This document shows, piece by piece, positions 24,895 to 38,112 of a DNA stretch of 64,000 bases. Each line of letters begins with the position of its first letter. The first letter of the stretch is position 1. The notes under the pieces were generated by a model, which saw only the letters and a program-made list of their open reading frames with translations, was not told the origin of the DNA and ran no database searches. The DNA is taken from positions 1 through 64,000 of the forward strand of contig NZ_JALBGV010000009.1 in the NCBI RefSeq assembly GCF_023006505.1. The letters are read 5' to 3'. The translations under genes were made by a program, and so were the position numbers. Source of the stretch: Neorhizobium sp. SHOUNA12A. Lineage in GTDB: Bacteria; Pseudomonadota; Alphaproteobacteria; Rhizobiales; Rhizobiaceae.

Positions 24895-25284
24895 ATGATT
24901 CAAGACTTCTCCTCCATCATCGACCGCTTCGGTATCGGCAGCCGCGGAAGTTCGGCTGTCGTGCATCAAGGCACCGGCTATTTCGCCGTGACGCCTCAAT
25001 CCCCTTATGACGGTGATTTGAGCACTGCCGAACAGACCCGGCAACTGCTCGCCAAAGCCGAAGCGCGGCTTGCCGAAATCGGCAGCGCCAAGCAGGGCCT
25101 GATCTTCTGCGCGATCATATTGGCCGACATGGACGGTTATGCCGAAATGAACGAGGTCTGGGACGCCTGGGTTTCGGGCATGGCTCCGCCCGCCCGGGCC
25201 TGTTTCGAGGCGCGGCTTGCCAATCCCAATCTGAAAGTCGAGATGATCATGGTGTGCGCTGCGGCATCGACCAAGGCGGAATAG
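24895..25284 (+). CDS. RidA family (YjgF/YER057c) protein
   Basis: 129 residues with the chorismate-mutase-like fold of the Rid family (TAEQTRQLLAKAEARLAEIG, CAIILADMDGYAEMNEVWDAW, PPARACFEARLANPNLKVEM). The Arg that in RidA itself binds the imino substrate carboxylate is seen in PARACFEA. Family members hydrolyse reactive enamine/imine intermediates; this divergent subgroup has no assigned substrate. Confidence 0.8.
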   Translation: MIQDFSSIIDRFGIGSRGSSAVVHQGTGYFAVTPQSPYDGDLSTAEQTRQLLAKAEARLAEIGSAKQGLIFCAIILADMDGYAEMNEVWDAWVSGMAPPARACFEARLANPNLKVEMIMVCAAASTKAE

Positions 25285-25441
25285 CGGGCATTTCCGCAAG
25301 ACCAATGCAGGTTTTGCATGGGTGCCCTGAGGCTTTGTTGCTTTTACAGGCAGGTGGGAAGGATTATATCCCTGTCATCGAACGACGCCGGAGCCAAGAA
25401 CGGTTGCTGCCGTCAGACAGTCTCGGGAAAGGGACCCGATC

Positions 25442-25588
25442 ATGAACGTAGCACGCTCTTTCAACAACTGGCGCAAGTATCGTCAGACCGTCACCGAACT
25501 CGGCCGCATGACCAGCCGCGAACTGCAGGACCTCGGCATCGACCGCTCCGACATCCGCAGCGTCGCCCGCGCAGCCATCGGTCGCTAA
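25442..25588 (+). CDS. DUF1127 small protein
   Basis: 48 residues. The sequence (NNWRKYRQTVTELGRMTSRE then LQDLGIDRSDIRSVARAA) is a typical DUF1127 protein: basic and helical. Some DUF1127 proteins bind RNA; in Rhodobacter one is co-transcribed with the CcsR sRNAs. Here a strong terminator follows at once (25620-25644) and then an RNA locus with the same CCUCCUCCC motifs. That synteny is the best clue to its role in RNA metabolism or stress response. Confidence 0.85.
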   Translation: MNVARSFNNWRKYRQTVTELGRMTSRELQDLGIDRSDIRSVARAAIGR

Positions 25589-25619
25589 TCGCGATATTGC
25601 TGCCTCGACCATGCACGAC

Positions 25620-25644
25620 GCCCGCCATTGCTGCGGGCGTTTTT
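25620..25644 (+). terminator. Rho-independent terminator after the DUF1127 gene
   Basis: GCCCGC (25620-25625) pairs with GCGGGC (25633-25638) across a 7-nt loop and is followed by a T run. Confidence 0.8.
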
Positions 25645-25780
25645 GCGTCAGAAGATGCTCCGCGCGCGCGGCCTTTTTCAGACGTTCACTACCCCGTTTT
25701 CCGGTATGCATTTTTCGTATAGCTGCACTGCAACATAATGACTATCAATCGAGCAGGATCGTTGTATAGTCATACTTATC

Positions 25781-25936
25781 GAAGCAATGCACCTCCTCCC
25801 GCAGAGCTTCGTGTTATCAGACGGCCCACTCCTCCTCCCAGGGACGTCTGTAGGAATGGCGGCACTCCTCCTCCCAGCCGCTGTTCGGTTCTTTACGGAA
25901 AGCCTGCCGCACCTCCTCCCGCGGCAGGCTTTTTCG
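25781..25936 (+). ncRNA. CCUCCUCCC-hairpin small RNA locus (CcsR/cuckoo or alpha-r14 type)
   Basis: Four hairpins each show CCTCCTCCC in the loop, at 25792-25800, 25831-25839, 25867-25875 and 25912-25920. The stems are GAAGC/GCTTC with inner TGC/GCA, AGACG/CGTCT with inner CCC/GGG, GCGGC/GCCGC, and a perfect 10-bp AGCCTGCCGC/GCGGCAGGCT, the last followed by TTTTT and serving as terminator. The motif is complementary to Shine-Dalgarno sequences. Loops of this kind define the CcsR/cuckoo RNAs and the rhizobial alpha-r14 (NfeR1) family, which act on mRNA translation. TATAGT at 25765-25770 could be a -10 box. One transcript or two tandem RNAs cannot be distinguished. Confidence 0.8.
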
Positions 25937-25944
25937 TTTTGGGG

Positions 25945-26374
25945 CTGAGGGTTTCCAGAATTCAAAATCACTCGTTCGAGAGAAGCCGCTCAGGCGGCAT
26001 CCGGATCTCGATTCGTGCCTTGAAGTCGAAGACGCGGTGAAGCGATTTATTGCCACATCGCCGAGAAGGGGGCGCGCGCGGAAAACGGTCTTCTGCGGAT
26101 TCTCACGGCAACCGGATCTCCATAACGGCCAGCATCGCAGCCATCGCGGAAGCGCCGGAAGAGATGATTCGCCTCCAGCGCATCGCCGTATCGACCGGCC
26201 TTTTCTCTTCCTCGCTACCGGTCTTCTCTTTATCGCGCGGCCTATGTCGCTGAGGTACGCCTGATGCAAAGGAAGATCGTAACGATCGGTTAAAACGAGG
26301 TCATCCGCGGGGTCTTCGTTTACCGTTTGTTAACCATGTCGGCGCTAGAAACGGTCAACGATTTCTTTACGTAG
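25945..26374. other. Intergenic region upstream of minC
   Basis: No gene is supported. Short open frames here lack ribosome-binding sites and family resemblance. The right end (about 26310-26370) is A/T-richer and should hold the minCDE promoter. Confidence 0.45.
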
Positions 26375-27103
26375 ATGACCAAAATGCTAACAGACGCTCG
26401 CGCTATTCGTATCAAGGGCCGTTCTTTTCTGGCGGTCGTGCTTGCTCCCGACCTTCCCTTCGATGACTGGCTTGTCAGGCTGGATGATCTCGCGGCGCGT
26501 TCCGCCGGGTTCTTTCTGGGCCGACCGGTCGTGCTCGATGTCACCGATCTGCCGATCGATCGCGCTCAGTTGAAAGAGCTCATCGCCGAGCTTGCCGGGC
26601 GCAGCGTCAATATCATGGGCATCGAAGGCGGCCGTCCTTCGATCCTTGGGCCAGGCATGCCTCCGGCACTCAAGGGTGGTCGGCCGGTCTCCGACGAGGC
26701 CGTCGCCAAGGAGCCGATCATCGAGCTGCACAACAGCGAGCCGAAACCGTCAGTGCCCGAGATGCGTCCGACCTTGCAGTCCATCGTCATTCGCGATCCC
26801 GTGCGGTCGGGGCAGTCGGTGATCTTCCCCGAAGGTGACGTGACGATTATCGGATCGGTCGCCTCGGGAGCTGAAATCATCGCTGGTGGCTCGATCCACA
26901 TTTACGGGACCCTGCGTGGCAGGGCCATGGCAGGATCGCTCGGAAACGCATCGGCACGCATCTTCTGCCGCAAGCTCGAAGCCGAGCTTTTGGCAATCGA
27001 CGGCATCTACAAGATGGCGGACGACATGGCCCCAGGCCTTCGCGGACATTCAGTCCAGCTTTGGCTCGAAGGGGATTCGATCATGGCAGAGAAACTTATT
27101 TGA
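26375..27103 (+). CDS. minC: Septum site-determining protein MinC
   Basis: 242 residues. It blocks FtsZ ring assembly away from midcell. The N-terminal domain (about 1-110) is weakly conserved. The C-terminal beta-helix domain that binds MinD starts near residue 135 (LQSIVIRDPVRSGQSVIFPE) and shows GDVTIIGSVASGAEIIAGGS, HIYGTLRGRAMAG and the ISARIFC-like segment NASARIFCRKLEAELLAI. First gene of minCDE, transcribed together with minD 31 bases downstream. Confidence 0.92.
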   Translation: MTKMLTDARAIRIKGRSFLAVVLAPDLPFDDWLVRLDDLAARSAGFFLGRPVVLDVTDLPIDRAQLKELIAELAGRSVNIMGIEGGRPSILGPGMPPALKGGRPVSDEAVAKEPIIELHNSEPKPSVPEMRPTLQSIVIRDPVRSGQSVIFPEGDVTIIGSVASGAEIIAGGSIHIYGTLRGRAMAGSLGNASARIFCRKLEAELLAIDGIYKMADDMAPGLRGHSVQLWLEGDSIMAEKLI

Positions 27104-28266: not shown

Positions 28267-28419
28267 GTATTTCGCCTTCTTGCGCGAAGGAAGAAGGCCG
28301 GCTTGGCATCTCGCTCAGCCGGCAGCTCCTCTCGACCGTCTCGACGCGCTGAGTGGAAACGGCCGCCAATCCGGCCCGCTTGACAGGATTGCTGAAAACC
28401 GACAGTTATCGTCGTAATT

Positions 28420-28507
28420 CCGAGGGGGGCATCTTGACGATGCTGAGATGGCGGTGAGCCGGACCCTTGAACCTGATCCGGGTTATGCCGGCGTAGGAAC
28501 GGAAATA
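28420..28507 (+). promoter_or_regulatory. TPP (thi-box) riboswitch
   Basis: The two conserved halves are seen: CTGAGATGGCGG around 28443-28454, with the GCATC/GATGC helix before it, and CCCTTGAACCTGATCCGGG at 28464-28482 followed by TTATGCCGGCGTAGGAA. This binds thiamine pyrophosphate and should switch off thiXY when the coenzyme is plentiful. No clear terminator follows, so control of translation of the short leader ORF or thiX is likely. Confidence 0.92.
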
Positions 28508-28581
28508 GGCGTCGACCGACGGCACTTTCTCTTCTCCGCTTCACCTGGGTCTCCGTGATTGACTGATCTGGAGATCGACCG

Positions 28582-36309: not shown

Positions 36310-38112
36310 TCAGGCTTTTTCGAAGAGCGGCGAGATGACCATTTCCGGAACCAGGACAAGTCCCTTGTCGGTGATGCGGATTTCGGGGATGACTGAGAGC
36401 GGGATGAGGTTGAAGCCCATATAGGCAATGGTGCAGCCTGCCTTTTCCCATTCGAGCTTGAGGGCCTTCACCTCGTCGGCAACCTCGTGGACGCGCTTGT
36501 CGGAGAGCAGACCGGCGATCGGCAGCGGCACCATCGCCGTAACCTTGCCATCCATGACAACGCAGACGCCGCCCTGTTTTTCCTCGATCGCATCCAGCGC
36601 CAGCTGCATGTCGGTCTCGTTGGTGCCGGCGACGATGATGTTGTGGCTGTCATGGCCGACCGATGAGGCGACGGCGCCTTTTTTCAGGCCGAAGCCGTTG
36701 AGCAACCCATGTGCGACATTGCCGGACGATTTGCCGTGCCGTTCGACGACGGTGACGAAGCAGAGGTCGTGGCGGTCGAAATGCGCCTGCCAGTCGTCGG
36801 CGGGTTCGAGCGTCACCGTGACGTGGCCGAGCGTGATGCCGGGAAGTTCGGTACGGATCGTATGGGCGGTGACCGTGTCGGTCGGAAGATCGGGCGCCAG
36901 CTTGAGGTTTCTCGGCAGCTTGACGGTGTGGTAGGCGGCCTCTGGATAGCGATAGGGTTTTGAAAGCGCTTCATCCAGGATTGGCGTGATCTTGCGGTTG
37001 TCGACCACGAGTTCGCCGCCGTACCAGGTGCTGACTGGCTTCAGGTCGTCGCTCAGAAGCACGAGGTCCGCCCTTCGTCCGCCGCCAAGACCGCCGATCT
37101 CGCCTTCCATGCCGAAACGGGTCGCGCCGTGCAGCGAGCCCATCGCCCAGGCCTGTTCCGGCGTCATGCCGGCCTTGACAGCCTCGCGTGTCACCCAGTC
37201 GAGGCCGAAGGCGAGCAGATCCTCGGCGTCGCGGTCGTCGGTGCAGACGGCGACGCGTTTATGCGAGGCGCCAAGTTCGGTGATCGTCTTGATCGCATGC
37301 GGCAGGGAATGCCAAGGCGTTGTCGGCGGGCCACCGCGCAGGAAGAGCCAGACGCCGGCTTCGAGCAGGTCGTCGGCAATGTCGCGGTCGATCGCCTCAT
37401 GGGTATCGGTGACGCCGGAAGCGGCGTAGGCGGCAACGAATTCCCGACCATAGACGTGGCCCGAGACCGGCCGGCCGCGCTGGAGTGCTGCTGCAAGAAT
37501 GGCATGGCTGCGCTCGTCGCCCATCGCGACGGGGACGAAATCCATCTTTTCGCCGAGCGCCACGGCCTCCGGCCATTTGTCGAACAGTGCCGCGATTTTT
37601 GCCGGCGTCAGGTCGCCGCCGGCGGTTTCGAGCTGCGGAGACGTCGCCGGCACTGTGCTGGGCACGGTGAGGAAGATCGACAGTGGTGCCTGGCGCGCAT
37701 CTTCAAGCATTGCCTCAACACCCGCGACATCCATGACATTGCCGATCTCGTGGCTGTCGCAGAAGATCGTCGTGGTGCCGTTGAGGAGTGCTGCCTCGGC
37801 ATAAGCGCAGGCCGTGACCATCGAGGATTCGATGTGGATATGCGGATCGACGAGGCCCGGAGCAATGATGCCGCCTTTGGCGTCATAGAGTTTTGCCGAG
37901 CCGTTCCGGTAACTGCCGGCCGGTTTTACGGCGGCGATACGGCCACCCGAGACCCAGACCTCGCGACCGTCGAGAATGCGCTCCGAATAGGTGGACAGCA
38001 CGCGCGCACCCTGGATGACCAGATCGGGGTCGCGACGGGCCGAGGCGACATCGGCGAGACGGCGGGTCATGGTCGAAAGCGGCTGAACGGAGAAGCGGGT
38101 AAGGGTGCTCAT
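36310..38112 (-). CDS. ade: Adenine deaminase
   Basis: 600 residues. It deaminates adenine to hypoxanthine (purine salvage). Metal-binding HxH in [13 protein letters not shown], then [19 protein letters not shown] and [11 protein letters not shown]; the C-terminal domain with [19 protein letters not shown] is characteristic of Ade (COG1001) and separates it from other amidohydrolases. ATG 38112 (STLTRFSV) is preferred to ATG 38124 because it has the better spaced GAG. Single gene. Confidence 0.9.

Follow-up and report, generated by a model that had tools for sequence, protein, structure and literature searches.

A short DUF1127 gene and, downstream of it, a four-hairpin RNA lie side by side in the window (the whole 64,000-nucleotide stretch of Neorhizobium sp. 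SHOUNA12A contig NZ_JALBGV010000009.1 analysed here), either gene preceded by a predicted promoter region of its own that contains an LsrB/VtlR-type box (Table 1). Since both the RNA family and the DUF1127 gene beside it have been described before, the locus as such is nothing new; what is contributed here is this wiring, as predicted from the DNA. The reading we prefer, with a probability of about 0.7, is that of a four-hairpin alpha-r14/cuckoo sRNA beside its frequent DUF1127 partner, together forming an LsrB-driven pair in which the loops of the RNA would block Shine-Dalgarno sequences and the DUF1127 protein would act in trans.

Table 1. Features of the DUF1127–sRNA locus and its downstream context (window positions)
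Feature	Position	Strand	Basis or detail
LsrB/VtlR-type box, DUF1127 promoter	25306..25328	+	TGC-N7-GCAT-N3-TG-N3-T, exact
Predicted −10 element of DUF1127, TTATAT	25364..25369	+	58 nt from box start
DUF1127 gene, 48 aa	25442..25588	+	ORF and PF06568
Stem resembling an intrinsic terminator, with T-run, between the two genes	25617..25644	+	9-pair stem
LsrB/VtlR-type box, sRNA promoter	25707..25729	+	one mismatch, GTAT for GCAT (core)
Predicted −10 region of sRNA, GTATAGT	25764..25770	+	sequence alignment
Hairpin 1	25780..25811	+	loop motif 25792-25800; outside Rfam match; double changes at 5/9 pairs
Rfam RF02344 ar14 match	25812..25936	+	107.7 bits; hairpins 2-4
Hairpin 2	25818..25850	+	loop motif 25831-25839; double changes at 6/7 pairs
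Hairpin 3	25854..25886	+	loop motif 25867-25875; double changes at 6/10 pairs
Hairpin 4 and terminator	25897..25934	+	loop motif 25912-25920; double change at 1/14 pairs, 5 invariant
minC	26375..27103	+	PF03775, PF05209; downstream context gene, outside the unit

The ORF at 25442-25588 matched the PF06568 profile with 56.7 bits against a curated cut-off of 23.3, which places it in the DUF1127 family, and every one of the four loops downstream carries CCUCCUCCC, a nine-base anti-Shine-Dalgarno motif. The loop motif CCTCCTCCC, all copies of which lie on the + strand at the loop starts of Table 1, was found four times on the two strands of the 64 kb where 0.76 were expected, and since none of 100 shuffles reached four, a chance run of motifs is ruled out. 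Folding of 25778-25936 gave four separate hairpins with the motif in each loop (MFE −63.9 kcal/mol, z −4.76), a stability equalled in 0/200 shuffles, and a T stretch stands directly 3′ of the fourth hairpin (25897-25934). A sequence-only reading of this stretch had described a DUF1127 gene followed by a four-hairpin RNA, with the same anti-Shine-Dalgarno motif in all four loops and a last hairpin that is also the terminator, and in each of these points it was borne out. It had also likened the hairpins to the alpha-r14/NfeR1 family, to which the RNA does belong: the covariance model of Rfam ar14 matched 25812-25936 with 107.7 bits (gathering threshold 58.8, E 6e-19). This model covers three hairpins in 123 nt and is filled by hairpins 2-4, so that the additional 5′ hairpin of the window RNA falls outside the match, and an annotation based on Rfam would therefore begin the RNA ~34 nt too late.

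Four ar14 copies and seven DUF1127 matches were found in the genome of SHOUNA12A itself. Across 40 genomes, this one included, the ar14 search gave E ≤0.001 in 32 and exceeded the cut-off in 25, and each of the 23 other genomes of the genus contained at least three matches. The ar14 places in the 24 genus genomes were sorted by eye (118 of 119; the one omitted, G012:C88:1-76, scored 36.1 bits). Class C loci have four hairpins; 17 of them, in 15 genomes, have DUF1127 upstream as in the window, and 16 have none, DUF1127 being absent within the ~1.5 kb read on each side. Class B, present as one locus per genome in 24/24, has an ar14-like RNA with two DUF1127 genes downstream, and its RNAs have three exact loops in 15/24. 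Class A comprises the remaining 61 loci, mostly with three hairpins and without DUF1127; ~760 nt 3′ of one class A copy (L002) a match to the ar35 sRNA was seen at 2385-2489 of that locus (51.7 bits, gathering threshold 45).

The stems of the four-hairpin RNA are real. Thirty-three four-hairpin copies, the window included, were aligned; they represent 22 of the 24 genus genomes (loci chosen by eye, with four exact loops in 28, three in 4 and two in 1; L097, L113, L114 and other degenerate copies were excluded). The RNAalifold consensus contained 40 pairs, with pairing in 96.8% of cells and changes on both sides at 18/40 pairs, either value being reached by 0/500 shuffles, and the count of further pair types was reached by 9/500. 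In a control in which partners were slid along the alignment, pairing fell to 39–48%, a comparison favoured here by the derivation of the structure from the same alignment. Judged by the share of its pairs with double changes (Table 1), hairpin 1 has support comparable to that of hairpins 2 and 3, and hairpin 4, the terminator, is nearly invariant across the 33 copies. Because the alignment shows compensatory changes, the covariation in relatives on which the sequence-only reading had staked its stems is in place.

The adjacency of DUF1127, which that reading had brought forward as synteny, recurs across the family. When one genome was taken from each of 30 other genera, ar14 scored over the cut-off in 29, and 45/79 copies (25/29 genomes) had a same-strand DUF1127 gene within 1 kb, against ~0.09% expected per copy; DUF1127 was absent near 34/79 copies, tandem arrays being counted more than once, and adjacency was seen in both orders. 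Much of the RNA itself had already been described. In S. meliloti the RNA families SmelA099 (four hairpins) and SmelA075 (three) are reported to carry CCUCCUCCC in each loop on variable stems (PMC3927594, Reinkensmeier 2011), and the window RNA, with adjacent hairpins, CCUCCUCCC in each loop and variable stems, is of this cuckoo/SmelA099 type; hairpin number and loops are alike, and the window copy stands between DUF1127 and minC. The same paper already groups rhizobial three- and four-hairpin RNAs with the Rhodobacter RNA, and the term DUF1127 is absent from its main text. Short DUF1127 genes are said elsewhere to be often associated with CcsR-like sRNAs, 'labeled CIN1 locus' (PMC10253847), and by that definition the window, in which a short DUF1127 gene adjoins a CcsR-like sRNA, contains a CIN1 locus. 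The proposal that the window newly links the two families had therefore been anticipated, by the grouping in PMC3927594 and by CIN1 in PMC10253847. A twin-box DUF1127–sRNA unit was not described in the titles and abstract openings of those open-licence papers that literature searches listed, which is not proof of its absence from the literature.

The box pattern TGC-N7-GCAT-N3-TG-N3-T is the union of two published descriptions: the NfeR1/LsrB site, reported as TGCA-N6-GCAT at −72 to −60 of NfeR1, where it is bound by LsrB, which activates NfeR1 (PMC10746234), and the VtlR box, GCAT-N3-TG-N3-T (PMC7486931, PMC8844928). Exact matches numbered 20 in the genome of SHOUNA12A against 2 for the reversed control, which was outnumbered in 24/24 genus genomes, and 7/20 fell at five relevant loci: three lay around a third DUF1127 gene, on contig 135, and one each at the window DUF1127 gene, a class B DUF1127 gene, an ar14 copy and ar15/AbcR. 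A LysR-type gene adjoins ar15/AbcR, with an exact upstream box, in this genome, and lsrB adjoins ar15/AbcR in S. meliloti (PMC8844928). An exact box at window position 37492 sits within an adenine deaminase gene and is probably due to chance. At G000:C135:38071-38438 (L145, L239), a DUF1127 gene has both a box and a terminator-like stem, and beyond these lies another exact box that has no hairpins behind it; this second box borders directly on the 3′ end of a gene running the opposite way, in an arrangement kept in G002 and G015, and is perhaps the remnant of a lost sRNA.

At class C loci with DUF1127 (n=17), the DUF1127 box was exact in 14 and had one mismatch in 3, and the sRNA box was exact in 4, with one mismatch in 7, two in 5 and three in 1 (11/17 with ≤1). 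Four-hairpin copies without DUF1127 (n=16) had an exact sRNA box in 12, two mismatches in 3 and three in 1. For class A and class B, box statistics were confined to the 53/61 and 23/24 loci with the first loop where expected, the rest being dropped: the class A sRNA box was exact in 31, with one mismatch in 17 and three or more in 5 (48/53 with ≤1), and in class B the box of the first DUF1127 gene was exact in 23/23 and that of the sRNA poor (one mismatch in 3, two in 15, three in 5). For the second DUF1127 genes of class B the start pattern found none (n=0 for these statistics). Shuffles of the same stretches, which keep base composition only, gave a box with ≤1 mismatch in 0.6% or fewer.

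A pattern search placed the −10 element of DUF1127 at +57 or +58 from the box start in 15/17 class C loci and found none in 2. Between the two genes, the 48-nt stretch containing the terminator-like stem at 25617-25644 folded at −21.2 kcal/mol (z −3.27), and comparable intergenic stems were seen by eye in the alignment of the 17 class C loci; a consensus scan of 25200-26000 returned 0 sigma-70 promoters and 0 terminators. The start of the window sRNA box precedes the first loop motif by 85 nt, a distance of 84–88 nt in 15/17 class C loci and constant over most loci of classes A and C, so that the promoter should go with the extra hairpin and the transcript should begin immediately ahead of hairpin 1; from the spacing reported for NfeR1 (motif from −72, PMC10746234), a start is expected near 25778. 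Because a terminator-like stem and a second predicted promoter region separate DUF1127 and the sRNA, the window locus does not look like one operon, unlike ccaF1-CcsR. The sequence-only reading's view that the locus mirrors the CcsR locus of Rhodobacter consequently holds for the DUF1127 gene beside a hairpin sRNA and probably does not hold for what lies between the two genes.

In R. sphaeroides CIN1/cuckoo, too, a short DUF1127 gene lies upstream of hairpin sRNAs. There, however, ccaF1-CcsR is an RpoHI/RpoHII operon, in which CcsR is reported to be cut by RNase E from the ccaF1 transcript (PMC10253847, PMC8625941), whereas the window has two predicted promoter regions with LsrB-type boxes. 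Were the window locus nonetheless expressed in the Rhodobacter manner, both genes would be read into one transcript in spite of the terminator-like stem, and RNase E would release the sRNA from it with the help of the DUF1127 protein. Such an arrangement has a precedent in CcsR1-4, which originate in the 3′ UTR of ccaF1 (PMC8625941), and it is in keeping with the other genera, where DUF1127 comes first in 35 of the surveyed ar14 copies and 14 of these 35 begin 28–41 nt after the DUF1127 domain. Moreover, 20 loci from other genera were read (17 close-gap, 3 wide-gap with four hairpins). In the close-gap loci the first loop comes 23–96 nt after the DUF1127 stop, and the stretch in between, mostly too short for a box, contained one with ≤1 mismatch in 0/17. 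In the window, by contrast, the stem and the second box lie between the genes, and the distance from sRNA box to first loop is kept within the narrow range given above; a CcsR-like operon is improbable here.

LsrB/VtlR control of genes of both kinds has precedents. Brucella VtlR is reported to activate AbcR2 and three DUF1127 genes (PMC12595884), and Agrobacterium VtlR to activate atu1667, an orthologue of two of the Brucella DUF1127 genes (PMC7486931). With GCAT-N3-TG-N3-T upstream, exactly for DUF1127 and with one mismatch for the sRNA, the window locus resembles this regulon, as represented by AbcR1, atu1667, VrsA and the Brucella DUF1127 genes, in its box and in having a DUF1127-type and an anti-Shine-Dalgarno sRNA target; in the regulon as reported, however, sRNA and small-protein targets lie at separate loci, whereas in the window they are neighbours with one box each. 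NfeR1 is described as having three identical, redundant anti-Shine-Dalgarno motifs and as base-pairing with ntrB (PMC8844928, PMC10746234). The window RNA matches the whole alpha-r14/NfeR1 model (RF02344), shares the loop motif and has an LsrB-type box at a like distance, and it differs from NfeR1 in its extra 5′ hairpin and in the DUF1127 gene alongside. An NfeR1-type NtrC site was also considered and rejected, the motif TGC-N11-GCA being absent from 25589-25710.

These boxes suggest that one stress regulator may switch on both genes. The weak point of such shared control is the sRNA box, whose GCAT core is altered by one mismatch in the window and which departs from the pattern at two or three positions in 6/17 class C loci. 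The core mismatch would also suit a silent extra copy, intact in sequence and without expression under ordinary conditions: of six S. meliloti alpha-r14 copies only one was reliably detected by Northern blot (review, PMC7143759), and the window copy may therefore be silent as well. Against this, SmelA075, another copy, is reported to be a stress-induced RNA with processed forms (PMC3927594), and the compensatory changes over 33 copies, together with the conserved promoter region, argue for use, so that we regard silence as unlikely.

In the LsrB-driven pair as we envisage it, the LysR-type activator LsrB (VtlR) would turn on both DUF1127 and the sRNA, and the ~157-nt RNA would offer four interchangeable CCUCCUCCC loops for pairing with the Shine-Dalgarno regions of several mRNAs; this pairing would block translation of the targets, as reported for S. 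meliloti NfeR1. The DUF1127 protein, made under the same signal, would act in trans, its target being either RNA, by analogy with CcaF1, or sensor proteins of which PhoR is an example, by analogy with the short DUF1127 proteins (SDPs) of Agrobacterium. Both analogies come from one source (PMC12501420), according to which CcaF1 binds RNA and the Salmonella DUF1127 protein YjiS showed no RNA binding, the SDPs bind PhoR, and DUF1127 proteins of S. meliloti, R. sphaeroides and E. coli complement the Agrobacterium mutant. A direct partnership between DUF1127 protein and sRNA, which the sequence-only reading had suggested, is the least certain part of the scheme. The PhoR binding and the complementation favour a plainer account, in which the two genes have a mere regulator and location in common and the protein, working for example on PhoR, is unrelated to the RNA; the 16 four-hairpin copies without nearby DUF1127 fit this account too. 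Set against it are the same-strand adjacency in 25/29 sampled genomes, in both orders, and the keeping together of the pair as a ~640-bp unit in differing surroundings, which leave it a serious contender at somewhat less than even odds.

The best MinC matches belonged to Rhizobium sp. CF080 (98% identity) and to N. galegae, in keeping with a Neorhizobium-group genome. The neighbourhood of minC was tried as a conserved context and rejected. DUF1127 and hairpins accompanied minC in 6 of the best 80 MinC loci of 404 relatives (four Neorhizobium, one Rhizobium sp. CF080 and one Rhizobiales isolate); 74 lacked the pair, with a weak DUF1127-like match in L181, L183 and L185, and it was likewise missing from some other Neorhizobium minC loci. 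Further along the window, a TPP riboswitch (28413-28516, + strand, 77.8 bits) precedes a gene for the permease of a binding-protein-dependent transporter (PF00528).

A 656-bp query spanning 25290-25945 had matches in 589 of 72,556 plasmid records, many of the 589 being closely related strains, and 128 of these extended over ≥80% of its length. Eight rhizobial plasmid copies, examined from among the matches listed, all had DUF1127, both boxes (≤1 mismatch) and, as judged by eye, a terminator-like stem; each had four loops except L262, which had three. Downstream neighbours, in the 6/8 copies with annotation, varied (dinB, groES, an EamA transporter, a cold-shock protein, kduI and an AbiEii-type gene); three plasmid copies had an exonuclease upstream in common. 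The flanks of loci were clustered by DNA. Sixteen chosen units (8 plasmid, 6/17 class C, 2 from other genera) were aligned with the window and its flanks. Their right edge fell at 25939-25950 in 16/16. The left edge fell at 25300-25316 in 10/16, which is within the first box or immediately ahead of it, and later in 5, and one unit was in two pieces; L090 shared the minC side with the window too. Five four-hairpin copies without DUF1127 (L054, L060, L081, L087 and L111) all lie 3′ of one gene family, which looks by eye like the 3′-5′ exonuclease preceding DUF1127 in L262, L266 and L267.

Beyond the genus, the 200 nt preceding the first DUF1127 gene contained a box with ≤1 mismatch in 12/17 close-gap loci and none in 5, and of the 3 wide-gap four-hairpin loci 2 had both boxes in place and 1 gave an ambiguous picture. 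Eight weaker-scoring loci came from other families of the order: box, DUF1127 and loops followed one another in three (L125, L126, L127), L032 had DUF1127 and a box with two mismatches, L033 had boxes and loops without DUF1127, and L031, L128 and L129 had neither DUF1127 nor loops. L126 (G030) contains, at 1000-2720, four consecutive DUF1127 genes, each with an LsrB-type box (one mismatch in three, two in one), anti-Shine-Dalgarno loops following three of the genes; in L127 (G033), at 1161-1915, a box with one mismatch and one DUF1127 gene precede a run of nine loop-like motifs. We give an even chance to the reading that the unit is a dispersed ~640-bp two-box cassette, derived from the one-box DUF1127–sRNA operon of other genera and families, that travels on rhizobial plasmids; from the arrangements compared here we infer, with due reserve, that the change would have run from operon to cassette.

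Were this cassette reading true, a single stress regulator would send out a small protein and, alongside it, a small RNA, and one evolutionary series would stretch from the CcsR-type operon at one end to the NfeR1-type stand-alone gene at the other. The twin-box wiring, if true, would account for the lasting proximity of two genes that look like separate transcripts, and would bring many DUF1127–sRNA pairs under one known redox regulator; an lsrB mutant would then bear on whether DUF1127 proteins act on RNA or on sensor kinases.
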